NCBI RefSeq assembly: GCF_020091585.1 | Contig: NZ_CP083582.1 | Span: forward strand, 6,024,536-6,088,535 | Reading direction: 5' to 3' | Source: Kovacikia minuta CCNUW1 | Lineage (GTDB): Bacteria > Cyanobacteriota > Cyanobacteriia > Leptolyngbyales > Leptolyngbyaceae | Length of the DNA stretch: 64,000 bases | Shown here: piece by piece, positions 14,502-59,019 of the stretch | Position numbering within the stretch: the first letter of the stretch is position 1 | Layout: every line of letters starts with the position of its first letter | The notes under the pieces: model-generated | What the model saw: the letters and a program-made list of their open reading frames with translations, nothing else | What the model was told of the DNA's origin: nothing | The model's database searches: none | Program-made: the position numbers and the translations under genes

Positions 14502-16662
14502 ATGCCTGGACTCCAAACTGCAACGACTCAACCCTATCAGTTTGTAGGCTACTGGGGCTTTGGAGCAGCATTGGCGTTAGAAGAACGGTTGACCCATTTA
14601 GTGAACCAGGCGGCTCCCAGTCAAGCTGTGCCGCAGCAAGGTGGACAATCCCCGCTCCATGCTTCACTAACCCAACCCACCTGGGAATGGAAGGTCGCCT
14701 ATCTAGGGGAATCCACTGGAAAGATTGCCCACCCTCCAGGAATCATCGCTGCGATCGCTGCCTCTGGAGCAGGTGATTCCGCTTGCTCCAAGGGTGCTGC
14801 GGTCGATGCCTGGGTGAAGATTGAGGGCGATCGCCTGATTTTGGGGCGGGAACCCCTTTGGTCGCGTTCCCCTCTATTGGACTCAAATGGGGCAGACCAT
14901 CTGGTTCGCCTCACGGTTGAGTTTTTTGCTGCCCCTCCTCGACTCCCCCCCCATCAGCATCCCGGCTTTATATGGCTATAGCTGTTTCTCCTACGTTCCG
15001 ACCCCCCTAACCCCGATTACTGGAATTTTCTCTGTCCCAGCCGCAACGGAACAGATCTGGGGCTGGGAGGAACCTGGCAAACTGGCTGCGGCAATAACGC
15101 AGCGATCGCTGGAATGGCAGGAGTTAACCCCGCAGTTACAGGACGAGGGGAGGGCGATCGACCAACTCCAAACCTTGCTGAAAGATGCGGTATCCCGGCA
15201 GATTGAGGATTTGGGCGACGACCCCGTAGGCGTTTTGCTGTCCGGTGGATTGGATTCTTCCATCGTTGCCGCTCTATTGGTGCAGGCAGGATTAAAAGTG
15301 CGTGCCTATACCCTCGACTTTGGAACGGTCGGAGTCCCAGAGTTGCCCTACGCGGAACAAGTAGCAGCACACCTCCAGATTCCTCTAACCAGGGTAGATA
15401 TTACCCCCCGGCGCATCCGGCGATCGCTCCTACCCACCGTTCGGGCATTGGATTTGCCCTTTGGGGATGGCGTCACGGTGCCCCTGTTTCTGCTATGCCA
15501 AGCTGCCAGTCAGGAAACACGGGTGATTTTTAATGGCGAAGGCGGCGACCAGTTGTTTGCGGGCTGGACCAATAAACCCCTGATTGCAGCAGGAATTTAT
15601 GAAACCAGGCAGACCGCAGAAACTAGCATTGAGCAGCAATATCTCCGCACCTTCCATCGCCTGTGGGGCTACGAAAAGGTACTGTTTCAGCCGGAAATAC
15701 GGACCCAGATCCAGCACCTCAATCCACAGGACTGGCTCCAGGAAGCGCTGGACCCGACTTTTAGCACTTCTCTGCTCCATCGTCTGCGGCGAGCCAATTT
15801 AATGTTGAAAGGGGCACAAAACATCCATCCCCGTGCCACCGCCCTGGGACTGGCGCATGGGTTAGGGGTGCGATCGCCCTTCTGCGATTTGCCCCTGGCA
15901 GAATGGGCTTTTCAGCTCGCACCGTCGCTCCACCTGCAAGGCTCCTGCGAAAAATACATTCTGAAACGAGCTGTAGAACCCTGGTTGCCGCCCGAAATTG
16001 TCTGGAGAACCAAGCGGGGGATGGGAGTTCCCTTAACTTCCTGGTGTTTGAATGGGCTATGGCATGAACTGGGAACCTGGCTCAACCCAGGGCGACTCCG
16101 GCAGGAAGGACTTTGGGAACCCCAGATCGCGACTCGGATCGCCGCTGGTGAACTGGGCACCCTCCAGGGTCGCCGCATTGGTGAAAGCCTGTGGTTACTC
16201 CTCCTGTGGCAGGTGTGGCAACAGACTTTAGGAGAAACAGCCCCCCCATCCTCCCTCGACCACCCCTTCTGGCTTCCCCCTGGCTGGGACAACAATATCT
16301 GCACTACCGGAAAAGGAGCAAAGAATGCTGAGCCACCCCCCCATCCCCCATCCCCCATCCCCCATCCCCCGTCCCCCCATTTCCCCATCCCCTGGCGCAG
16401 GAACTCCTCGCCACTTACGGTTCCCCCCTCTACGTCTACAGGGGCGATCGCCTGCGCCAAACCATTTGTCAGATCACCCATGCCATCCCCTATCCCCGTA
16501 CCCAGTTCCACTTCGCCAGCGTCACTAACGGCAATATTTCCCTACTTCGCATCTTCCGGGAATCAGGATGGGGACTCCACGCCAACACCCCTGGCGACAT
16601 TTACCTGGGTCTCCAGGCAGGCTTTCACCCCAGCCAGGTCGTCTACAGCGGCAGCAACCTGA
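14502..16662 (+). pseudogene. Asparagine-synthase-like protein, frameshifted
   Basis: The first frame (ATG 14502) encodes a shortened glutaminase-like half ending in VDAWVKIEGDRLILGREPL. Conserved sequence then continues one frame over as GRVPLYWTQMGQTIWFASRL, so one surplus base in 14853-14859 breaks the gene. The synthetase half is intact, with the PP-loop VLLSGGLDSSIVAALLV, FNGEGGDQLFAGW and KYILKRAV. The usual N-terminal catalytic Cys is not seen, so it may work as a non-glutamine ATP-dependent amide or beta-lactam-type ligase. Homology ends near 16300; the open frame runs on to 16662 through a C-rich repeat and across the LysA-like gene in the wrong frame, so the true stop was probably lost. 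Confidence 0.8.
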
Positions 16663-17669
16663 ACCGGGACGAGATGGCACAAATTCTTCATTGGGGGATA
16701 AAAATGCTCAATTTAGATAGTTTGTCCCAGATGCAGCTTTTTTGTGAAGTCTATGAGGAAATGGGGTGTGGGGTGTGGGGTGTGGGGTATGGGGAAGAAA
16801 TTCAAAATTCAAAATTCAAAATTCAAAATTCAAAATTTTCCTCCCCATCCTCCATCTCTCCTCCCTCCTCCCTCTCGCTCCCCCGTTTAGGGCTTCGCCT
16901 CAATCTTCCCGCACTCACGGGAGACAGCCGGATTGGGGTACGTCCAGAGGAGTTTTCCGCCGCGATCGCCCTGGCTCAAAAAGTGGGACTCAAACTCAGC
17001 GGGCTGCACTTTTACCGGGGAACAGGAACCAATGCTACGGTTGCCTTTACCCAGGTGATAGATCGGGTGCTGGCAATCGCCCAACAGCTTCCAGATTGGG
17101 AATTTCTCGACTTTGGAGGTGGGTTTGGCTATCCCTATCGCCAGCACGGAATTGCCTTCAATTGGCAGCAATTTGGCAGGGAGTTGTCCGATCGCCTGGA
17201 GCAATTGGATCGATCGATTGAATTAGTGATTGAGCCAGGCAGGGCAGCGATCGCCGGATGTGCCACCCTTCTGTGCCGGGTTGTTTCCGTCAAATGGCAA
17301 GCCGAAAAACAAATCGTCGGCGTCGATACCACCGTTGCCAATCTTTCAGTACCTTCAGTGCATGGAGGATATCGGGAAATTGTTGCGTTGGCACACCCCA
17401 CACCCCACACCCCACACCCTACTGACATTTGCGGCAACACCACCTACTCCCGCGACTATTTGGGCAAAAACTGTCTGCTGCCCGCACTGGAAATTGGCGA
17501 TATTCTTGCCATTCTGGATGTGGGTGCCTACGGTTATGCCATGTCTTCCCACTTTTTGCACCGCCCCAGACCTGCGGAAGTCCTGCTGCAATCAGGTAGC
17601 CATCGTCTGATTCGCAAACGAGAAGACTACAGTATTTTGTTAGAGAATCAAGTGTTTGAAGCCATCTGA
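16325..17669 (+). pseudogene. LysA/ornithine-decarboxylase-like PLP-fold protein, disrupted by low-complexity inserts
   Basis: An AAAGGAG ribosome-binding site precedes ATG 16325. After four codons a C-rich repeat (about 16333-16392) shifts the frame; the conserved protein resumes as LAQELLATYGSPLYVYRGDR and continues to 17669. It has the alanine-racemase barrel and decarboxylase C-terminal sheet: LDFGGGFGYPY, EPGRAAIAG, CGNTTYSRDYLGK and LDVGAYGYAMSS. Two more inserts occur in frame: about 35 residues after FCEVYEEM (from 16763) and HPTPHTPHP near 17395. The usual PLP lysine (in YAVKAN) seems to be Val in FHFASVTNGN, so ordinary decarboxylase activity is doubtful. It is likely co-transcribed with the asparagine-synthase-like gene. 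Confidence 0.75.
16763..16885. repeat. Low-complexity insert in the LysA-like gene
   Basis: GGGTGTG heptamers, then about five ATTCAAA heptamers, then a C/T-rich CCTCC block lie inside the coding sequence. They encode [23 protein letters not shown] and a Ser/Pro run. The sequence on both sides keeps the same frame and the family similarity. Confidence 0.85.
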
Positions 17670-32957: not shown

Positions 32958-34615
32958 ACAGGTGCTCCTAGCCACTCATTCATCGAGTGATATCGATAGA
33001 ATACACCTCTAGACAGGAAATTCTCAGTTTCCAGTGGATATACTGAGGGGAAGGCTTTGTCTGAAGTAAATTGGATTTCTCCTCCCATCTGCCAATGGTT
33101 AAGCGTCTGCGGCAAGAAACATTAATACTCTTAAAAGTCTGGGTAAGCACCTTTAGCCTTTTAGTATTGCTACTTCCTGCCAGTCACACATGCTCACAAA
33201 CAACAACCGAAGCCAATATACAAACTTATATCCAAAGCCTGAGAAGCAAGGATGCAAAAGTTCGGTCGGAGGCTGCTAATTCTCTAGCGGAAATGGGATT
33301 TGAAGCAAAAAAGGCAGTTCCGGCTTTAATAAGCGCTTTGAAAGACAGCAACGTAAACGTTCGGTGGAATGCTGCGTATGCTTTAGGAGAAATGGGTCCA
33401 GAGGCAAAGTCGGCTGCTCCGGCTCTCAAAGAAGTTTTACAAGATGACTATGGTATAGTCCGCTATTTTGCTGCTGATGCTCTAGGAAAAATAGGGCCGG
33501 CAGCAAGCGTAGCAATTCCGAATCTAATTAAGTCTCTAAAGGATGACGATGTAGCTGTTCGGCAGAGATCCGCTGGAGTTCTATCTCGCTTTAATCAGGA
33601 CGCGAAATCGGCTGTTCCTGCTCTAATAGATGCTTTGAAGGATAGTGACTCGAGAGTTCGCAGTAATTCGGCTTATGCATTGGGACAGATAGGTGCGGAT
33701 GCAAAATCCGCCATTCCCTCCTTAGGAGATGCTTTGAAGGATAATGACCCGCAGGTTCGCATTGAATCGGCTTATGCGTTGGGACAAATAGGTATGGATG
33801 CAAAATCTGCCGTTCCTGCTCTAATAACTGCTTTGAAGGATAGCAACCCAGAAGTTCGCTATAACTCTGCTTGTGCTTTAGGAGGGATAGGTGTGGATGC
33901 AAAATCCGCAGTCCCTGCCTTAATAGATAACTTGAAAGACAGTAATGTAAAAGTTCGCATTTGTGCTGTCTATACTTTTGAGCAGATTGGAGCAGATGCA
34001 AAAGCTGCAACTCCTGCACTGGTGGCTGCTTTAAAAGACGATTCTGTAGAAGTTCGAAGGAGAGTTGCTACCGCATTAGGACATATAAGTCCGGGTTCGA
34101 AGGATGTAGTTTCTTCTCTTATCCATGCTTTGAAGGATAATGATGCACAAGTTCGCCGCAACGCTACAGAAGCCTTAAGCAATATAGGGGTCCGGAGGCA
34201 AAAGTTTCAGTTCCAGCGCTCGTAAATGCCCTGAGAGATAATGACGCAGTAGTTCGTTGGAAGACCGCGAGTGTTTTATCTGGTATAGGACCCGAAGCAA
34301 AGGCAGCGATTCCAGCACTAATTATTTGTTTGAGAGATAAATCTGTACTAGTTCGCCGGAATGCAGTTGAAGCTTTAAAAAACATGGGTCCAGAAGCCAA
34401 AGTTGCAATCCCTGTATTGACAGATGCTTTGAAAGATAACGATGCGAAAGTTCGCCAAAGTTCGGCTGAAACTCTCTCTGGTATCGGCACAGAAGCAAAA
34501 GCAGCTATTCCGGCTCTTACTAATGTACTAAAGGATAATGAGGCAGAAGTGAGATGGAGCGCTGCTTATGCTCTATCTCAAATGAGTCCAGAAGCGAAAG
34601 TTGCGGTTCCAGCTT

Positions 34616-35702
34616 CGCCAATTCAAATCTGAAGTGCACCACCTCTAGAAGCTTCCCCTAGAGGGACTCAAAAGGGTAACCTGGCATTTATCACAACAAC
34701 AGGAAACCCTAATGAGCTATACGCAGCTTAGCGCAGATGAGCGCCTGGAACTCTATCGATTGAGACAAAGGGGTGATTTGTCCCTGCGGGCAATTGCCAT
34801 TCGAATGGGACGTTCCCACAGCACCATTTCTCGTGAACTCAAACGCAACCAAAGCTCAGAGCAGATCTATCTACCGGACTTGGCTCAAGCTCAGCAGCAC
34901 GTTCGTCGGCAGCAGTCCAAGCAACCGTTTGTGGGCATCTCTGAGGGTTGTTTGGCGAGGGTGAAAGCGCAACTTCGGCAGTACCATAGCCCGCAACAGA
35001 TTGCCGGTTCACTCAAGCTCAAAGGACTGGAGTGGGTGAGCCATGAGACCATCTATCAGATGATTTATCACAACTATGCCGATATGGGTGCCTATCGTGG
35101 CTATTTACGGCACTCTCACATCCGACGGCAGCATCGGAGCGCCAAGCGACAGAAACGAGGATTGATTCCCAATCGAGTTGGGATTGAACACAGACCTGTG
35201 ATTGCAGAACAAAAGAGTGAAATTGGGCATTGGGAAGGCGATACGATCGTCGGGGGTAATCATTTGGGAGCGATTGCGACGCATGTAGACAAAGCCTCAA
35301 AGTTTCTGGTTGCACGAGTGATGAAAGACCGAACAGCAGGGGAGATGAACCGTGTCAGTATTGCAGCGTTTGAGTCGATTCCAAAAGAGCGACGCAAGAC
35401 GATGACGTTTGATAATGGCAAGGAGTTTAGCAAGCATGAGCAACTAACAGCGAGGTTGGGAGTGCAATGTTATTTTGCCAATCCATATCATTCTTGGGAA
35501 CGTGGGTTGAATGAGCATACGAATGGATTGATTCGACAGTTTTTCCCAAAAGGAACGAATTTTAGAATCGTCAAGCAAGATGAAGTCGATCAAGTAGTTG
35601 AATTGATTAATCATCGACCGAGACAATCGTTAGGTTATCGAACTCCTCATGAGGTATTCTGGGGTCAGTCAGGTGATGGTGCACTTCAGATTTGAATTGG
35701 CG
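34616..35702 (+). mobile_element. IS30-family insertion sequence
   Basis: The 1,087-bp element has perfect 26-bp terminal inverted repeats (34616-34641 and 35677-35702), beginning CGCCAATTCAAATCTGAAGT. It is flanked by a 3-bp duplication CTT (34613-34615, 35703-35705), as expected for IS30. It carries one transposase gene. It sits within the HEAT-repeat array of the NACHT gene in the same orientation. Confidence 0.95.
34712..35695 (+). CDS. IS30-family transposase
   Basis: The 327-residue protein starts MSYTQLSADERLELYRLRQR and has the N-terminal helix-turn-helix of IS30 transposases (LSLRAIAIRMGRSHSTISRE, residues 23-42), then a DDE catalytic core: the first Asp in GHWEGDTIVGG, the second in MTFDNGKEFSKH, and Glu in GLNEHTNGLIRQFFPKGTNF. 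The frame is intact and ends within the right terminal repeat, so the element may still be active. It catalyses cut-and-paste or circle-type transposition. Confidence 0.95.
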   Translation: MSYTQLSADERLELYRLRQRGDLSLRAIAIRMGRSHSTISRELKRNQSSEQIYLPDLAQAQQHVRRQQSKQPFVGISEGCLARVKAQLRQYHSPQQIAGSLKLKGLEWVSHETIYQMIYHNYADMGAYRGYLRHSHIRRQHRSAKRQKRGLIPNRVGIEHRPVIAEQKSEIGHWEGDTIVGGNHLGAIATHVDKASKFLVARVMKDRTAGEMNRVSIAAFESIPKERRKTMTFDNGKEFSKHEQLTARLGVQCYFANPYHSWERGLNEHTNGLIRQFFPKGTNFRIVKQDEVDQVVELINHRPRQSLGYRTPHEVFWGQSGDGALQI

Positions 35703-37647
35703 CTTTAATAAAGACTCTAAAAGATAGTAATGCAGGTGTCCGCAATAATTCTGCCTACGCTTTGAGACAGTTAGGTTTAGATGCGAAAGTTGCGATTCCT
35801 CCTTTGATAGATGCCTTAAAAGACAGCAATTCGGATGTTCGTTGGAATTCTGCTATCGCTCTATGTCGAATGGGTGCGGAAGCAAAAGCCGCAGTTCCTA
35901 CTTTGATGGATACCTTAAAAGAAAACGAAATATATGTTCGTCAGGCAGCAGTCATTGCTCTATGGAATATAGATCCAACCTGGGTTTTTCAAATCAAATG
36001 GTTGGCAGGTATTCTAGCTTATACTCTTTTATTTTTGTTATGGTTGATGATTTTTTGGCTCCGCCCTTTTTGGCTATTTAAAGCTAACAATATTCTAAAA
36101 CCGTACACAGACTTTTCATTACCTGTTCCCTTCGGAAACAACGTAAAATTGCCGATTCGATTCGTAATTCTTGTTGGTTTCTTTCATTATCGGAAGAGAG
36201 TTCTGAATGCTTGGGTATCAGCCTACATAGGTAATGTGAGAAAGGGGTTTGAGAAGAAACATACAGTTAGCGATCGTGCAATCCATATATCAATGCCTGT
36301 TACTATCGACAAAACTACTATTCCAAATTTAACAACTAAACAACTTCAGCCACTCTTTAATGAAAAGCGTTGTTGTCTGTTGATTACAGGTGAAGGTGGA
36401 GCAGGTAAAACAAGTCTGGCATGTCAGTTGGCAAAATGGGCTATGTCAGAGGAAAAAGCGGAAAGACTATGTAAGCACCAAATGTTACCTGTTCTGATTG
36501 AACAAGATTTAGATCCTAAAGTTGCAGATGGGAAAAAACCATTTCAAGAAGTGATTAAAGGACAACTGCAATCGTTAATTGGTGAGTCTGAACCGATTAC
36601 AGATGAATTGCTAGAACATCTCCTTCGTCAACGTCGAGTTCTAGTGATTGTTGATCACTTATCAGAAATGAGTGAGGAAAGCCGCAAAGAAATTCGCCTT
36701 GAAGATTCTAATTTTCTAGCAAATGCTTTGATTGTGACCTCACGTTTAGAGGAAACACTTGATCAAGTACCAAAGACTACTATTAGACCGTTGCGAATTG
36801 AAGGAAATCGGCTCTCATCTTTTATGGAAGCTTACTTAACTCAGAAAGGCAAAAAACAGTTATTTACCGATCCAGAGTACTTCGATGCTTGTAGTCAACT
36901 TTCTCGAATGGTTGGGCAGCGTAATGCAACAGTATTACTCGCAAAACTATACGCTGAACAGATGATTGCCCGAAAAGAAGACGAACAGTCCAAAGCAGAA
37001 ATGCAAGATCTTGCGGCTTTACCAAAAAATATTCCAGATTTAATGCTCAGTTACCTGAATGAACTGAATCGAGGGGCATTGGAGAATCAATTTGACGATC
37101 GCACCGTTCATCAAGATGCCAAAGCGATAGCTTGGGAATGTCTCCAAAATACCTACCGCCCTGCATCTGCAAAACGGGATGCTGCATTAATAGCTATGGC
37201 AGGCGAAAACGCAGAAGCACGACTCAAACATTTGGAAAATCGTTTACGGATTGTTCAGACTATTGGAGCAGCACAAAACCATGTTCGGTTTACCCTTGAT
37301 CCTTTAGCAGAATATCTTGCGGCTTTCCATATTGTTGAAAAATATGGCAGTGATTCAAACAGTTGGCAAACTTTTCTGAAGAATGCAGATTCGTTCCCTA
37401 TAGAAGCTATTCAAGGATTCCTACTGGCAGTAAGGGATTGCTATTTGGCTATGGCTACAGAAGTAATAGTTCCCGATTTTGTAATGGAGACATTGGAACA
37501 GAAGACAGGATTAGTAAGTCATTCAATTCCTCAAACCAATGTCGAGTGAGCGGTAGTTGATCCGTTCTTCGCGATTCGTTGTCCTACCCTACCTTGTTCA
37601 TCACCCGATTGAGATAGAATTACATACACACATAAGCTATTAGTTCC

Positions 37648-38283: not shown

Positions 38284-41188
38284 TCACTTCTTCCTTGCCG
38301 CATACCAGCGATACACCAACTTCTCCAGTTCGACCCAAACAAACATGAGGGCGCTAAATCCCATACAAATGGCAAGCTCCGTGCCGTTCAAGTAATGGGT
38401 ACCAAAGAAGTTGCGCAGGAAGGGAACATATATCAGCATTAACTGCAAAATCGTAGTTAGGGTGATGGCAGTAATGACGTAGGGATTCGAGAAGGGATTG
38501 AGCTGGACAGTGAGACGTGTATTAGAGCGAATTGCCAGGGCATGCCCCATCTGAGCTACACAGAGGGTCGTAAATACCATTGTTTTCCACCGTTCGGGAT
38601 CGCCGGGGGTGGTTTTTGCGTAGTCGTAAGCCCAGACCATCAGGGCGATCGCCAAAATCGCCAGAATAATCCCAATCCGGATCATGTACGCCCCCAATCC
38701 CCGCGCAAAAATACTTTCGCTGGGGTCATGGGGAGGACGTTTCATCACATCGGGTTCTGCCGGTTCGACGGCCAGAGCCAGGGCAGGCAAGCCATCGGTG
38801 ACCAGGTTCATCCAGAGAATTTGGAGTGGGGTGAGGGGCACCCCCCCTAATCCCAACAGCGGTGCAGCACCAATTGTCAGCAATTCACCGATATTGCTTC
38901 CCAAAATGTATTTAATGAAACGACGGATGTTGGTGTAAACAACGCGTCCTTCCTCTGCCGCTGCCACAATGGTGGCGAAGTTGTCGTCCAGCAATACCAT
39001 ATCGCTGGCATCCTTACTGACATCGGTGCCGGTGATGCCCATAGCGACTCCAATGTCCGCCTGCTTCAGCGCAGGGGCATCGTTGACGCCATCTCCGGTC
39101 ATAGCAACGATCTGGTTCTTGTGTTGGAGTGCCTGAACAATCCGTAACTTATGCTCTGGGGCAACGCGAGCATAGACGCTGACCTCACCCACCTGCTGCT
39201 CTAGTTCGGGGAACTGCATGACCTCCAGATCCCGTCCAGTCAGGACACGATCGCCCGATTTCGCGATGCCCAATTCTTCCGCTACGGCGCGGGCAGTCAA
39301 CTGATGATCGCCCGTAATCATAATCGGACGAATTCCGGCTGTGCGGCAACGGGCAACCGCATCCCGTACTTCTGGACGGGGCGCATCGTGCATAGCGGCA
39401 AGTCCAAGCCAGATGAGATCCCGCTCTGTGGTTTCGTCCGTTCCCTCAGCCGGGACTTCAGCTAAGGGTTTGCAGGCAAACCCCAGCACCCGTAAACCCC
39501 GCTCCGCCATCTGGTTATTTTGTTCCAAAACCAATTGCCGCTGAGACTGGGTGATTGGCGTTGACAAATCGCCTACCTGAATCTGAGTGCAACGCTCCAA
39601 AATCAATTCGGGAGACCCCTTGGTGAACATCATGTAAGGGGGAGGGATGTGGGGTGTGGGGTGTGGGGTGTGGGGTGTAGAGGGGGCTGGCTGATCATCC
39701 CCAATTGCTGATGTCTGGGGGCTGGAGGCTGAGGGCTGAGGGCTGAGGGCTTCTACAATTACGCTCATGCGCTTGCGCTCAGAGGAGAAGGGAAATTCGA
39801 CAACGCGCGGGAAGCGATCTGCCCATTGATCCTTCTGAAAGCCTGCTTTGCCTGCCAGGGAGAGTAAGGCTCCCTCCGTTGGGTCGCCTAAAATAATCCA
39901 CTGGCCAGCTTCTTTTTGCAGAACTGCATCATTACAAACGGTACAAGCCGTTAACAGGTTGAGGAGTTCGGGATCTTCCTGGGGATTAATAATTGCTGGG
40001 TTCTGAATTAGCGTCGATCGGATGAAACGCTCCTTCTGGATCGTAACCATCGCCCGTGACCTGGAGAACCGTGCTACTGGTATGGACGAATTGCACCACC
40101 ATTTTGTTTTGGGTCAGGGTGCCTGTTTTGTCAGAACAAATGGTTGTAACAGACCCCAGGGTTTCGACAGCGGGCAGTTTGCGGATCAGGGCATGGCGGC
40201 GTACCATCCGTTGGGTACCCAATGCTAGGGTGACGGTGATTACGGCAGGAAGTCCTTCGGGGACGATCGCCACTGCCATGCTGAGGGAGACTTCGAGCAG
40301 TTCTTTCCAGCTTTGCAAACCCAGATGGATCATGCCCCCAATCACGACCAGGGCAACCAGTGCCATCGCCCCTGCCACCAGGGTTTTGCTGAGTTGGTCC
40401 ATGCGTTGCTGGAGTGGGGTCGGTTCTGATTCCACCGATTGCAGCATGGTGGCAATGCGTCCCAACTCGGTTTGCATGCCTGTGCCCGTGACCAGAACAG
40501 TTCCCCGTCCCTGAACGACTTCTGTACCCTGAAAGACTAGGTTGATCCGATCGCCCAGGGGGGTATCCTCTGGCAACACCACCTTCGCCTCTTTGTTCAC
40601 AGAATGGGCTTCCCCTGTCAGGGCAGACTCCCGAATTTGCAGGTTGGACTCTTCGAGCAGCCGTCCATCTGCTGCAATCTGCACCCCTGCCTCCAGCAGC
40701 ATGATGTCGCCGGGAACCAGTTCCTTTGAGTCAACTTCCACAATTCTGTCATCGCGGATCGCCCGGACTCTAGAAGACGCCAACTTTTTCAGGGCTGCCA
40801 AATCTTTTTCTGCCTTGCTTTCCTGCAAGTAGCCCAACAATCCATTCAAAATGACGATCGCCAGAATTGCGATCGTGTCCTTAAAGGGAATCTCTCCTGG
40901 AGAGAGCTTTCCAGAGCGTAAATCGATAAAATCTAGCACGCCGGAAATCAGTGCCACCACAATCAGCAAAATCAGCATGATGTTCGTGAACTGTTCCAGC
41001 ATGATTTGCCAATTGCTGCGTCCTTTCGTCTCGACCAACTCATTCGGCCCATAACGCTGGAATTGGGCGGCGACCTGCTGACTGGTTAACCCAGCCTCGC
41101 GATCGCTCTCCAGATGCCTCAGGCTTTGCTCTAGCTCTAACGTATGCCAGAGCGGTGTTGAAGTTGGTGATGAAGAATTGACAGTCAT
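38284..41188 (-). pseudogene. P-type cation-transporting ATPase (Ca2+/P2 type), frameshifted
   Basis: Two overlapping frames together make one ion pump of 967 residues. The first has the actuator [10 protein letters not shown], the membrane motif [14 protein letters not shown] and the phosphorylation site [13 protein letters not shown], and stops at 39986. The second frame (continuing [20 protein letters not shown]) carries the nucleotide domain [13 protein letters not shown], the hinge [20 protein letters not shown] and the C-terminal helices. One surplus base near 40008-40016 breaks the gene. The PEGLP motif suggests the P2A/P2B Ca2+ class. A repeat insert encoding [16 protein letters not shown] lies in the nucleotide domain (39637-39750), apparently in frame. 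Confidence 0.88.
39637..39750. repeat. Low-complexity insert inside the P-type ATPase gene
   Basis: GGGTGTG heptamers (about four) and GGGCTGA repeats (about four) are inserted between MSVIVEAL and [10 protein letters not shown], a loop of the N-domain. The reading frame is kept across the insert. Confidence 0.85.
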
Positions 41189-41261: not shown

Positions 41262-41308
41262 TTAATTAGTATTAAGTTTGTAGATTGCTCTCTATCAACG
41301 ATCGCCAA

Positions 41309-42565
41309 ATGAGCGTCAATCCGTTTAATCCTCAGGCTCTTGTAGGCAGACGAGCAGAACTCAATCAGGTCTGTCATATTCTCGCTTCGGACGGTGATCT
41401 ACTGTTGGCAGGGGTACCGGGCAGCGGTCGGCGCACACTTTTACATCGGGCAGCGCAAACCGTAGGAGTCCGGGTGATCGAAATAGATTGTCTCCGGGCA
41501 ACGGACTCCACCCGCTTTCTCAAACTGTTGGCGGAAGGGATCACCTCTGTGTTTAACGACCCTGCTGAATTGAAATTAATTCAGTACTGGAGCAAGGATC
41601 AGCCCGTTATGCTGGAACAATCCGCGCCAACCCAGGTAAGTTTGACCTGGAAGCTTGATCCCAAGGGTGAATGGTGCCTGTTTCAGAGTCTGTTGTCCCT
41701 GCCACAAATCCTGGCTGAGTGGCTCAACTGTCGCGTTGTCCTGGTGTTTCTAAATTTCCCCCATGTCCGTTCCTGGGATCGCTCAGACAAGTGGCAAAGC
41801 TACCTGCGGCAGGAAATTCAGGAGCAAACACGGGTCAGTTATGCCCTAATTGCTACGGTGGCAGAGAGCTGGGTGCAGCACAGCAATATGCAGGTGATTT
41901 TGTTGGGACCGCTCAAGCATGAAGACCTGCAACCGTGGATAGTGGAGTGCATGGCAGCCCAGGGTTTGCAATTCGACCCAAACAGCGGAGCGCTCCATCT
42001 GTTTTTGGATTACATTCAAGGTCATGTGGGGGAAGCGATCGCCCTTGCCCGTCGGATTTGGTCAGATCAGCTCACACTTCAAGGGGGGGAAAAGGCAGCG
42101 GGCAGCGGGCAGTGGGCAGAAGGGAAGCCAGGAGCCAGGAGCCAGGAGAAGGCGCGGAGACGCGGAGACGCGGAGAATTCCTTAATTCAAAATTCAAAAT
42201 TCAAAATTCAAAATTCTCCTTACCCCACTCCCCACTCCCCACTCCCCACTCCCCACTCCCTCATTTCTGCTCACCAGGTTCACCAAAGTACCCTTTCCCT
42301 GGTCGAAGATTTATCTCTTACCTTTGAGTCGCTCATCCTACTATTGCCACCCAGTCAAGTCAGAGTTCTAGAAAGCCTTGCCCTCGATCCGACTGACAGC
42401 CCCCACTCCCGCGAGTATATTCAGAAACATCAACTTTCTAGGGGAGGAGGACTCCAGGGAGCGCTCGCCAGTTTACAACAAAAAGGATTGGTCTACGGTT
42501 CGGAGTATCATTACCGGATCACAATGCCCCTGTTTGCCTTCTGGTTAAAGCATCATCTCACGTAG
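41309..42565 (+). CDS. P-loop ATPase (AAA/STAND-like) with low-complexity insert
   Basis: I chose ATG 41309 (MSVNPFNPQALVGRRAELNQ); a TTG at 41285 would add eight residues. The 418-residue protein opens with an ORC/AAA-like box (LVGRRAEL) and Walker A GVPGSGRRTLLHRA, followed by a likely Walker B stretch CRVVLVFLNFPHVRSW and, further on, a lid-like helical region. About 60 residues (from GGEKAAGSGQWAEG to YPTPHSPLPTPHS) are encoded by low-complexity repeats and split the protein; the following part has a winged-helix-like end (LQQKGLVYGSEYHYRITMP). It may be an ATP-driven regulator or an archaeal-type ATPase; the role is unknown. Confidence 0.75.
   Translation: MSVNPFNPQALVGRRAELNQVCHILASDGDLLLAGVPGSGRRTLLHRAAQTVGVRVIEIDCLRATDSTRFLKLLAEGITSVFNDPAELKLIQYWSKDQPVMLEQSAPTQVSLTWKLDPKGEWCLFQSLLSLPQILAEWLNCRVVLVFLNFPHVRSWDRSDKWQSYLRQEIQEQTRVSYALIATVAESWVQHSNMQVILLGPLKHEDLQPWIVECMAAQGLQFDPNSGALHLFLDYIQGHVGEAIALARRIWSDQLTLQGGEKAAGSGQWAEGKPGARSQEKARRRGDAENSLIQNSKFKIQNSPYPTPHSPLPTPHSLISAHQVHQSTLSLVEDLSLTFESLILLLPPSQVRVLESLALDPTDSPHSREYIQKHQLSRGGGLQGALASLQQKGLVYGSEYHYRITMPLFAFWLKHHLT
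42083..42262. repeat. Composite low-complexity insert inside the P-loop ATPase gene
   Basis: In order: GGCAGCGGGCAGTGGGCAG, CCAGGAGCCAGGAG, GACGCGGAGACGCGGAG, AATTCAAAATTCAAAATTC and CCCCACTCCCCACTCC blocks. This is the same order as in the spacer modules, but here all of it is translated without a stop. The surrounding protein stays in frame. Confidence 0.88.
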
Positions 42566-53469: not shown

Positions 53470-54273
53470 ATGGCGCAAAGTTCAAGATTCATGCAGCAAT
53501 TCTTACATCAATCGCCACATTTATTGATGGGTCGATCCTTCTTGAAACCTCAGACCGTATACCAACTCAGTGTTTCAGCACTCAGTGTTTCAGTGACGAT
53601 CGCAGCCAGTATAAATATTATCAGCTACGCCACTCATCTCCCCCCTGTATTTGCAAACACTTTATTAATTGCCAGCAGTTATTGTGAAGGCCAAATGCGG
53701 GATGGTTTGATTAATGGCAGAGGAACCTGTTCTTTCCCAAGTGGCAATCGTTATGAAGGGGAATTGCGGAACGGGAAAAGACAGGGCAAAGGTGCCTTTA
53801 CCTTTGCCAATGGCACACGTTGTGAAGGCGAGTTTCGCAATGATTTATTGAACGGTAAAGGAACTTGTGTTTTTCCCAGTGGAAACCGTTATGAAGGGCA
53901 ATTTCGTGATAATAGGCGAGAGGGAAAAGGCAGTTTTTACTTTGCCGACAATACCCGTTGTGAAGGTGAATTTCGCAATGATTTTCTAAACGGATTTGCA
54001 GTTTGCGTTTTTGCAAATGGCGATCGCTATGAGGGAAACTTTCAGGACAGTAAGAAACAGGGAAGCGGTGTATTTACATTCGCCAACGGAATTCGTTGCG
54101 AAGGAGAGTTTCGTAACGATGGGTTGAATGGGGTAGGAGCCTGTACCTTTCCCAGCGGAAACCGCTATGAAGGAGAATTTCGGGATGGCAGACAAAACGG
54201 TAGAGGAACCTATATTTTCGCCAATGGCAACCGTGTCGATGGCTTATGGAGAGATGGCAGGTATGTCAAGTAG
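53470..54273 (+). CDS. Exported MORN-repeat protein
   Basis: The 267-residue protein has an N-terminal hydrophobic segment (about residues 37-62, VSALSVSVTIAASINIISYA), then eight 23-residue MORN repeats from about residue 77. The repeats alternate between two kinds: one starting CEGEFRND with a second Cys in its GTC stretch, and one starting YEGEFRD. MORN repeats form beta-hairpin rods that bind lipids or proteins. The paired cysteines suggest disulfides if the rod is exported. Start ATG 53470; the long N-terminal part before the hydrophobic segment may mean that the true start is downstream. Confidence 0.88.
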   Translation: MAQSSRFMQQFLHQSPHLLMGRSFLKPQTVYQLSVSALSVSVTIAASINIISYATHLPPVFANTLLIASSYCEGQMRDGLINGRGTCSFPSGNRYEGELRNGKRQGKGAFTFANGTRCEGEFRNDLLNGKGTCVFPSGNRYEGQFRDNRREGKGSFYFADNTRCEGEFRNDFLNGFAVCVFANGDRYEGNFQDSKKQGSGVFTFANGIRCEGEFRNDGLNGVGACTFPSGNRYEGEFRDGRQNGRGTYIFANGNRVDGLWRDGRYVK

Positions 54274-57360: not shown

Positions 57361-59019
57361 TCACAAGTCTCGATGCGAGAGAAGGGAACAAAAGCGCGCC
57401 CCACGCCCCCCTACCAACAAAGGGAGATGTCCCCTAGGTGCTGAGGTGCTAAAAGTCACTCCACCAGGGTGAATCCATGTACTCTTCACTCTCCATCCCA
57501 CACGATCGCCAAATTCATTCCAAGTCTTATCACCTGGATATTGCCCGTCGAGTTTTGCCCCAGATTCGACATAAATTTGCTTTTGCACACTGAAGCCAAA
57601 GTGCCCCTTGCTGTACTTGACCCAGACGCGGTCAATAGTCTTCAAATCTACACAAGGAAAGTTCAATAGTTCGTCTGAAGTAAACCATTCTCCATCCTTC
57701 TTACCGAAGGCTTGAGCCATCACCCGATAGGTTTCCTGATCTGCTTCCTTCCAGTCGCCTGCTTTGAGCAGATCCCGCAAATGAGTGTAGTCAATTCTCA
57801 GCTTAGAGCTGAGGTCATCTTGTGCTGGCGGCGAGGCTGCTGGAGCGAAATCTCCTGATCGAAGGATTGTGTCTGGTGGTAATATGCTTGACACAATGGC
57901 TGGAAACTCGATTCGACGAAATGGTGTGATGGGTTCAGAGCGATCGAGACGGATGCGATAGGTATCCAAAATGGGGGCAATATCTTCCTGCCGCAGTTTT
58001 AAGACGCGCTGGAAGTATTGCAAGTCCTCCAGACTGGTCGCACTGAGTTGGGGGTCGTAGTCCAGGGTTTCCTTAACTGCCTGCTCAAATTCATCCAGCT
58101 TTGCCCAAAACACCTGATAGGGCTGCAACACTTCCTGGGCAATACTCTCTGCTTCCGAAGCAGACAACCCCAACTCCTGCCAGTGAAATCGCAATGCCCG
58201 CTGATCCACTGGGGATAGCCTGCCCCGTTTTTGTTTCGCCCGTTCATCCACTGCTTTGCGGTAGGTCAGCTTTGGATCACCCTGGGGTGCCCGACCAACC
58301 AAAATCTTGTAGCCTTCCCGGACGGCGTAGATTTCGGGTTGCATGGTCGGAGCGGCTTCCTGCACCTTTTCCCTGGCGTATTCGTGCAACTCGTCTACCG
58401 TAATCTGTCCATTATTGTCGAGGTCGGCTGCGCCCGTTTCCAACCCCTGCACCAGATAGCGGGTGTAAATGCTGGCTCCCTCTTTTTCATAGGAAACCTG
58501 GGTTGCTGTCGAGGAGGTCAGCACAGCTCGTCCTTCGCCGCCGAGTTGCGCTTTGACATCAATAATTTCATCTGCCTGTTTTGCCTTCATATCCTTGGCA
58601 AAGGCTCCACTAAAGCAGGAATCCAGAATCAACACCTGCCGTTTAGAACGGCTCTGGCTCATGCAGTGTTGAATAAAACTGGCAGGCACCGCAGTACTGG
58701 TAAAAATGCGCCCTTGCGAATTCTTTTGAGTGGTTCGGGTGGCAAAGTAGAGACTGCCGTTGTCATCCCTGACGCCATGCCCGGAGAAATAGAGCAGGAT
58801 CAGGTCATCCCGGCTGCGGTTCTCGCTAAACAGTTTTTCAATTTCATACTGCATTTGGGTCAGTTCTGGATCCGGCAGCAGATAAACCGTGTCAAACCCA
58901 CCGATCGCGGGGTTTTGCAACACTCCCTGCATGGCTCGAATATCGGCTTGAGTTCCGGGCAGGGAATCTAACCCGCTTTCGTAATCACTCACGCCAATCA
59001 GTAACGCAATCTTTGCCAT
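57361..59019 (-). CDS. Caspase-like protease with EF-hand loop and C-terminal GUN4 domain
   Basis: Start ATG at 59017-59019. Residues 1-245 form a caspase p20-like (metacaspase/orthocaspase) domain: IALLIGVSDYESGLDSLPGT, the catalytic His in LILLYFSGHGVRDD and Cys in VLILDSCFSGAF. A Ca2+-binding-like loop DLDNNGQITVDE follows near residue 200. After a helical linker, residues about 410-535 are a GUN4 domain: YTHLRDLLKAGDWKEADQET, GEWFTSDELLNFPCVDLKTI, WVKYSKGHFGFSVQKQI and DRVGWR. GUN4 binds porphyrins and regulates Mg-chelatase. The last 18 residues look like readthrough after the normal GUN4 end. I infer tetrapyrrole-sensing proteolysis. Confidence 0.92.
   Translation of the reverse strand: MAKIALLIGVSDYESGLDSLPGTQADIRAMQGVLQNPAIGGFDTVYLLPDPELTQMQYEIEKLFSENRSRDDLILLYFSGHGVRDDNGSLYFATRTTQKNSQGRIFTSTAVPASFIQHCMSQSRSKRQVLILDSCFSGAFAKDMKAKQADEIIDVKAQLGGEGRAVLTSSTATQVSYEKEGASIYTRYLVQGLETGAADLDNNGQITVDELHEYAREKVQEAAPTMQPEIYAVREGYKILVGRAPQGDPKLTYRKAVDERAKQKRGRLSPVDQRALRFHWQELGLSASEAESIAQEVLQPYQVFWAKLDEFEQAVKETLDYDPQLSATSLEDLQYFQRVLKLRQEDIAPILDTYRIRLDRSEPITPFRRIEFPAIVSSILPPDTILRSGDFAPAASPPAQDDLSSKLRIDYTHLRDLLKAGDWKEADQETYRVMAQAFGKKDGEWFTSDELLNFPCVDLKTIDRVWVKYSKGHFGFSVQKQIYVESGAKLDGQYPGDKTWNEFGDRVGWRVKSTWIHPGGVTFSTSAPRGHLPLLVGGRGARFCSLLSHRDL

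Follow-up and report, generated by a model that had tools for sequence, protein, structure and literature searches.

Within a 64,000-nucleotide stretch of the Kovacikia minuta CCNUW1 genome (contig NZ_CP083582.1, positions 6,024,536 to 6,088,535; hereafter the window, in whose own numbering positions are given unless a contig is named), one locus on the forward strand, 33095–37549, holds what reads as the ruined gene of a membrane-spanning, NLR-like receptor. The order of parts that it encodes—signal peptide, HEAT repeat array, one membrane helix, NACHT NTPase, and the NACHT C-terminal helical domain NCH4—would place a predicted extracytoplasmic array and an NTPase switch on opposite sides of a membrane. 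We consider sensing outside the cell through a membrane-anchored NACHT switch to be the most likely role of the intact protein, at a probability of about 0.45. A more far-reaching version, which we put forward tentatively and would sooner doubt than rely on, is that of a transmembrane NLR: filamentous cyanobacteria would wire an outward, copy-number-variable HEAT recognition array through one helix to an NLRC4-like switch, such that one polypeptide covers the roles of both surface receptors and cytoplasmic NLRs of animals, with one clade monitoring both sides of the membrane.

Anatomy of an interrupted gene

The former single gene can be read as three translated open reading frames (ORFs) on the forward strand: P0001 (33095–34207), P0002 (34189–34632, in a different frame), and P0003 (35696–37549), which lies downstream of an insertion sequence (IS). 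It opens with a start codon and a basic, signal-peptide-like segment of 35 residues (33095–33199), most hydrophobic at residues 9–27 (KD19 of 2.24). The HEAT array follows in three parts—ten 33-residue units, predicted to be extracytoplasmic, the last of which enters a frame slip (33215–34206); four units and the start of a fifth in the other frame (34207–34615); and, beyond the IS, the remainder of the split unit and two whole units (35703–35974). A single transmembrane helix, residues 94–122 of P0003 by hydrophobicity and by the structural model described below (35975–36061), leads through a linker to the NACHT/STAND NTPase module, with approximate bounds at 36296–37399, and to NCH4 (37400–37516; Pfam E = 2.7e-16, above cut-off), ahead of the stop codon at 37547–37549. 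The extent and strand of the gene, its signal peptide, and its one strong membrane segment are as an earlier reading of the letters alone (the sequence-only reading) had placed them.

That reading also called an IS flanked by a duplicated CTT and a frame shift at 34187–34190, and both were recovered. The IS (34616–35702, forward strand) is bounded by perfect 26-nt inverted repeats (34616–34641 and 35677–35702), bordered by CTT on both sides (34613–34615 and 35703–35705), and encodes, on the same strand, a 327-aa transposase with Pfam HTH_38 and rve domains (34712–35695); by this transposase, we take the element to be IS30-like. All 14 copies in the genome, including the one in the window, are near-identical (matching at 100%), indicating that the IS was active recently. 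It alone is enough to break the gene. The frame change, located at 34180–34192 in the translations of P0001 and P0002, is either a mutation or an assembly error; the latter could be the case given that further genes in the window seem to be split as well. By eye, a P-type ATPase gene on the reverse strand (38284–41188) apparently consists of two overlapping ORFs, and another seemingly split gene lies at 14502–16662; together, the split genes suggest assembly indel errors or decay.

Pfam HEAT_2 matched the three pieces with E-values of 3.8e-74, 2.9e-25, and 4.4e-12, in agreement with the proposed HEAT array, but the description of its repeats as near-identical and 39 residues long did not hold. 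Their spacing is mostly 99 nt, or 33 residues—a 50-nt stretch recurs in 14 copies, mostly 99 nt apart and far beyond chance—and the 16 whole units found with a repeat profile, in addition to the one split by the IS, average 45% amino acid and 56% nucleotide identity, the best pair reaching 76% and 81%. Given these identities and a mean proportion of differences at synonymous sites (pS) of 0.67 among the units, the window array is old and not freshly made, which rules out recent repeat expansion in this copy. In repeat sequence, the family resembles E-Z/PBS-type HEAT proteins and the designed alphaRep proteins, which were the best solved-structure sequence matches of P0003 (to its HEAT part), and differs from both in having the array fused to a membrane helix and a NACHT switch. 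A phycobilin-lyase identity was rejected, as the NCBIfam matches come from the HEAT part and fall far below cut-off (for example, CpcE at 119.5 versus 330); PADLOC matches of the family were likewise set aside, being to HEAT regions save for two weak P-loop matches (E = 0.004 and 0.007).

The NACHT switch and its closest comparisons

Structural modelling confirmed the predicted NACHT/STAND fold of the NTPase. An AlphaFold2 model of P0003 built with 53 relatives (mean predicted local distance difference test score, pLDDT, 85.5; predicted template-modelling score, pTM, 0.77) matched NLRC4, NLRP3, and NOD2 at Z-scores of 17–18; in VIA-align, NLRC4 gave Z 18.4 with a root-mean-square deviation of 5.0 over 372 aligned positions (residues 169–613), and NLRP3 and NOD2 gave 17.7 and 17.1, the matches spanning roughly model residues 170 to 615. 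The same three proteins were the best solved matches in Foldseek (E = 2e-9 to 3e-9), with a TM-score by query length of only 0.41–0.44 in the top three rows. Profile comparison of the nucleotide-binding part with five NACHT proteins of the same genome was consistent with this assignment (probability 97.6, E = 4e-12), and an unrelated NTPase fold, which had been set beforehand as the outcome that would overturn it, was not what emerged. Against the Pfam NACHT model itself (PF05729), the window piece scored 23.8 as a protein, relative to a cut-off of 26.7, and 26.4 in the genome scan (27 with in-frame neighbours); four of the ten relatives scanned scored above the cut-off (L133, L143, L083, and L119). 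A model of the full-length relative L066 (1149 residues) comprised an outer superhelix, membrane helix, NACHT, and inner HEAT repeats with a pLDDT of 82.5, although its arrangement of domains is not reliable at a pTM of 0.47.

The GEGGAGKTSLA and Walker B motifs read from the letters are present in the translation. Across 54 rows, the glycines, glutamate, lysine, and threonine of Walker A (G232, E233, G234, G235, G237, K238, and T239, with one free position after G235; GEGGAGKTS at 36389–36415), the acidic Walker B residues D320 (36653–36655) and E324, and S349 and R350 of the sensor 1 motif TSR (36737–36745) do not vary. Walker B of the window copy reads VIVDHLSE, having VDHLSE where the compared NACHT has LDGLDE, the second Asp being replaced by Ser. 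At the winged-helix motif (37289–37324, FTLDPLAEYLAA), the window copy has Leu where five motif-matching NACHT proteins of the genome have His. We take F-x-H-x-x-F-Q-E-Y to be the winged-helix His motif; 5 of the 25 other NACHT frames in the genome match F-x-H-x-T-F-Q-E-Y, all five with His, and at the like place the window-gene family reads F-x-L-D-P-L-A-E-Y, with a Leu column at least 90% invariant over 43 rows. The register of Leu against His had weak local support (hhalign probability 15.5, E = 0.0017) and was not found in global mode, and a sequence profile search of solved structures, intended to place the winged-helix His via solved NLRs, matched no animal NLR, returning ArsA/Get3 P-loops as its best matches and one NB-ARC protein at E = 0.095. 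A His-to-Leu substitution within the NACHT domain makes bNACHT25 hyperactive (PMC12169576). If the positions correspond, members of the window-gene family may, by analogy, lack the usual ADP-state lock and be held off in another way.

The animal NLRs that share the NACHT fold at Z 17–18 carry C-terminal leucine-rich repeats and, to our knowledge, no membrane helix, whereas the repeats of the window family are HEAT repeats, N-terminal, and predicted to lie outside. We know of no antiphage activity for this family; NCH4 is already a Pfam family. Among bacterial systems, bNACHT25 is similar in that an NCH-type helical domain comes after its central NACHT, NCH1 in that protein and NCH4 here (PMC12169576). 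As laid out in the same source, bNACHT proteins place a sensor at the C-terminus, NACHT in the centre, and an effector at the N-terminus, which is a nuclease in bNACHT25; the window family instead has, at its N-terminus, a secretion signal and then the outer array of HEAT repeats and the membrane helix, and the window copy has no C-terminal sensor, its stop following 10 residues past NCH4. HEAT repeats are mentioned at the C-terminus of TRADD-N proteins in PMC8195603. Among the best-matching open-access titles and abstract openings, none was found to describe the layout reported here; subscription literature may hold a prior description.

NACHT proteins are also found among the targets of diversity-generating retroelements in Thiohalocapsa PB-PSB1, where they take a NACHT-CLec form and the NACHT and CLec domains of one target are predicted to be periplasmic (PMC10907252). 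A paralogue of the window gene, of a type that adds a C-terminal FGE domain, resembles these targets, but no template/variable repeat was found for it, and in most counted members of the family HEAT arrays are the sole repeat or sensor-like domain. That such a retroelement diversifies the paralogue's FGE end was rejected, no template copy having been found: the next best genome copy of its last 400 bases is 67% identical over most of the query. Direct repeats of at least 70 nt were absent from L064, L134, and L135, and none touched the gene in L133 (inverted repeats were not searched).

Relatives, array evolution, and genomic surroundings

By their NACHT-NCH4 gene, relatives of the window genome, which measures 8.56 Mb, are mostly cyanobacteria. 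Within its order, 24 of 42 genomes matched the membrane-to-NCH4 part (E ≤ 0.001), 20 of 42 did so in an open frame of at least 870 aa (the window genome through its paralogue), and 22 of 42 carried NCH4 genes. All 25 NCH4 matches in these 42 genomes fell on genes found by the protein search, such that NCH4 marks the window-gene family in the order. In a phylum-wide sample of 386 genomes, 15 matched at 1e-20 and 17 carried NCH4. Some copies are broken or cut, with a stop inside the match in G052 and frames of at most 332 aa in G207, G234, and G338. A scan of named genomes, from which we kept the best 80 of 117 confirmed loci, returned cyanobacterial genera that we take to be filamentous; three of these 80 loci lie in records labelled Planctomycetota, Chromatiaceae, and 'Bacterium', which may reflect mis-binning, and the best reading is that the family is found mainly in filamentous cyanobacteria. 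Two members stand in tandem in Rivularia sp. MS3 (L108, 6393–12414), and L129 likewise holds two.

Layouts were counted over 83 gene rows, including near-duplicates and L139, whose 3′ end is cut; L099 and L100, which failed the P-loop pattern, and the cut, split, or fragmentary L068, L088, L113, L137, and L144 were left out. A basic hydrophobic N-terminus was present in 79 of the 83, compared to 178 of 742 neighbour proteins, and was followed by an [AVSTI]-x-A site in 66 (114 of the neighbours). A membrane segment precedes the NTPase in 80 rows, whereas a control stretch taken from these proteins gave one in 2 of 83, and the three relatives without a called segment fell just under threshold (1.40–1.57); homologues lacking a segment between repeats and NTPase, named by the sequence-only reading as evidence against itself, were therefore not encountered. 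A HEAT array between two such hydrophobic segments is predicted to lie on the far side of the inner membrane. The array was found outside only in 49 of 83 rows (3–16 units), on both sides in 16 (7–9 units outside and 5–6 inside, the form typical of the window's order), and inside only in 12 (4–12 units); five rows were of an FGE type with two outer units and one, L119, had another layout. Across relatives, outer copy number ranges from 3 to 16. Of the three FGE-type rows scanned with Pfam, P0004 and L133 carry a full-length FGE-sulfatase domain and L135 a partial one; we placed L125 and L134 in this type ourselves. In the 49 outside-only rows, any repeat sensor would be outside. The proposed design, in which extracytoplasmic N-terminal repeats are joined through the membrane to the NTPase, thus stands as to the membrane segment, although outer-only is just one of four main layouts, and the claim of an N-terminal-repeat sensor was incomplete in that the order's typical form also carries 5–6 repeats in the cytoplasm, where a sensor classically sits.

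These layouts are clade-specific. On an unrooted core tree of 74 rows including the window copy (quick method; 15 near-duplicate or fragmentary rows left out), they required five changes, relative to a minimum of four and a mean of 30.4 when shuffled, ruling out that arrays have often been moved from one side of the membrane to the other. The window copy belongs to a 23-row set (SH-aLRT 95), alongside 15 two-sided rows and seven further rows with the array outside only.

The fastest-changing folded part in five close relatives with two-sided arrays is the outer array, with nonsynonymous divergence (dN; dN/dS in brackets) of 0.186 (0.127), compared with 0.068 (0.055) for the inner array and 0.041 (0.036) for the NTPase; mean synonymous divergence (dS) exceeds 1 in all three parts, and after pairs with dS ≥ 2 or not computable were left out, 7–10 of 10 pairs remained in this set. 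The outer array and NTPase were alike in nine Nostoc-type loci (dN/dS of 0.093 and 0.107), and reached 0.50 and 0.22 in four Microcoleus-type loci, which differ in copy number and come mostly from metagenome-assembled genomes. We then considered a presumed binding face, taken to be the four positions randomised in alphaRep. On the outer array, this face varied about as much as other exposed positions in the 16 two-sided proteins (0.68 versus 0.62), in seven close ones among them (0.38 versus 0.37), and in three Oscillatoria loci (0.27 versus 0.27), and on the inner array it varied less (0.27 versus 0.41 in the 16 and 0.09 versus 0.16 in the seven). The suggestion of recent expansion or gene conversion, refuted for the window copy, finds support elsewhere: the best unit-pair pS was 0.00 in L076 and L112, 0.04 in L075, L077, L115, and L120, and 0.05 in L123, pointing to recent tandem copying or conversion in the outer arrays of these seven relatives, two of which, L075 and L076, are one unit apart (9 and 10).

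The gene's locus is stable within clades. A RecQ-like gene (by eye) lies near 12 loci, 11 of them Nostoc-type; gene family cluster 4 lies near 10 Oscillatoriales-type loci; and a UDP-GlcNAc 2-epimerase (by Pfam on L066), along with a small gene, lies near eight two-sided loci. The window copy itself sits between a tyrosyl-tRNA-synthetase-like gene (by eye) and a Uma2 gene. The intact FGE-type paralogue, at C1:2596690, stands at the end of a 53-kb stretch (G000:C1:2545251–2597838; L172–L174) that holds 8 of the genome's 26 NACHT matches; in 20000 random placements of the contig's 25 matches, the maximum in any 53-kb span was 6. This cluster also holds vWA_CoxE, AAA_5, FHA-TIR-EAD9, caspase, and EAD10-NACHT-NCH2 genes and resembles the vWA-MoxR ternary conflict systems described in PMC7159879.

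Several further features lie nearby. A separate NACHT frame (L189, G000:C1:6008137), 53 kb from the NACHT of the window gene, carries a hydrophobic segment around residue 38 that precedes its NACHT. By eye, an ORF on the reverse strand (57361–59019), about 20 kb from the NACHT gene, is caspase-like with a GUN4-like C-terminal part, and an ORF at 53470–54273 has MORN-like repeats behind a hydrophobic N-terminal segment. ORFs at 41285–42565 and 16674–17669 contain an in-frame short dispersed repeat, translated NSKFKIQNSK / PTPHSPLPTPHS.

Proposed outside sensing and its rivals

If the preferred reading of outside sensing is correct, the outer array would act as sensor in a system that may be immune, its ligand being a protein encountered in the periplasm or at the envelope; the helix in the membrane would relay the signal to the NACHT switch, which would exchange nucleotide and oligomerise in the plane of the membrane, with membrane damage or recruitment of a partner as the output. 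In the sister clade with two-sided arrays, a conserved partner in the cytoplasm may be what the inner array binds. In the window genome, the IS has put the gene out of action. In favour of this reading stand the two hydrophobic segments and the NACHT core that most relatives retain, the 49 outside-only rows, the fast change of the outer array in the five close two-sided relatives, the variability of its presumed face in the 16 two-sided proteins, and its range of copy numbers. Several observations weigh against it. Scans with Pfam, PADLOC, and NCBIfam recognised no effector domain in the window gene. Its topology rests on hydrophobicity, and counts of lysine and arginine around the helix (higher after it in 48 of 84, the same in 9, and lower in 27) are a weak signal, such that the positive-inside rule is not decisive. 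In the inside-only clade (12 of 83), secretion signal and helix persist with no outer array present, indicating that this array is not essential to the core. Whole-array positive selection was not detected in any of the three sets (dN/dS of the outer array 0.09–0.13 in two and 0.50 in the third), and the presumed outer face is conserved in the nine Nostoc-type loci (0.021 versus 0.075) and when Calothrix is added to them (0.167 versus 0.229). The enrichment beside defence genes that the sequence-only reading had envisaged was not seen in a coarse PADLOC scan of 33 loci, in which no family occurred in more than three of 128 near proteins and likewise of 107 farther ones (covering the 25 commonest of 78 near and of 119 far families). 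The near set comprised up to two ORFs of at least 100 aa on each side, and three near and two far proteins of at least 1000 aa were dropped. Lastly, a hydrophobic segment lies ahead of the NACHT in 3 of 24 other NACHT proteins of the genome, and membrane-associated NACHT proteins may therefore not be special to this family.

The protein might instead work from the inside out, the NACHT/NCH4 module (with inner HEAT repeats or FGE) sensing a cytoplasmic signal and the N-terminal helix and outer array serving as effector or anchor, for example through helix clustering that damages the membrane. Such an arrangement would keep to the classical STAND order, with the effector at the N-terminus and the sensor at the C-terminus, as in the bNACHT proteins (PMC12169576), and would account for the sensor-like domain at the classical C-terminal place in two-sided (16), inside-only (12), and FGE-type (5) rows, for the retention of helix and secretion signal where the outer array is absent, and for the presence of an intact FGE-type paralogue in a cluster of eight NACHT genes. 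However, in 49 of 83 relatives and in the window copy the protein stops shortly past NCH4, no C-terminal array having been found, and a large outer array would then be odd as an effector; we regard this possibility as rather unlikely, if deserving of serious attention. We give a lower chance, around that of an outsider, to a receptor with no immune role, which would use the NACHT switch to read envelope state, cell-cell contact in the filament, or another housekeeping cue. The purifying selection that two of three sets show on the array, the clade-stable locus among housekeeping-looking genes (RecQ-like at 12 loci, UDP-GlcNAc 2-epimerase at 8), the presumably filamentous habit of the named cyanobacterial genera, and the lack of a recurrent defence neighbour in the coarse PADLOC scan of 33 loci all favour it, but the patchy spread of the gene (NCH4 is carried by 22 of 42 genomes in the order and by 17 of 386 across the phylum sample), at times as broken or cut copies, and the position of the paralogue among conflict-type genes argue otherwise. 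Finally, the array might not be translocated at all, with the N-terminal segment and the later helix both associating with the membrane from inside. The indecisive lysine and arginine counts and a short second hydrophobic stretch after the helix in several relatives leave room for this, which we nonetheless judge highly improbable: basic hydrophobic N-termini and [AVSTI]-x-A sites are far more frequent in the family than among its neighbours, and the modelled helix 94–122 has the length needed to cross the membrane.

The usual account of NACHT/NLR switches is of sensors in the cytoplasm. A coherent family with a membrane-seated NACHT and an array predicted to lie outside would bring what happens at the cell surface within reach of bacterial NLR-type sensing. 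The family would offer a simple system in which to ask how an outside signal triggers NACHT oligomerisation, and its series of layouts—array outside, on both sides, inside, or inside with FGE—represents a natural experiment on the side of the membrane at which the sensor is placed.

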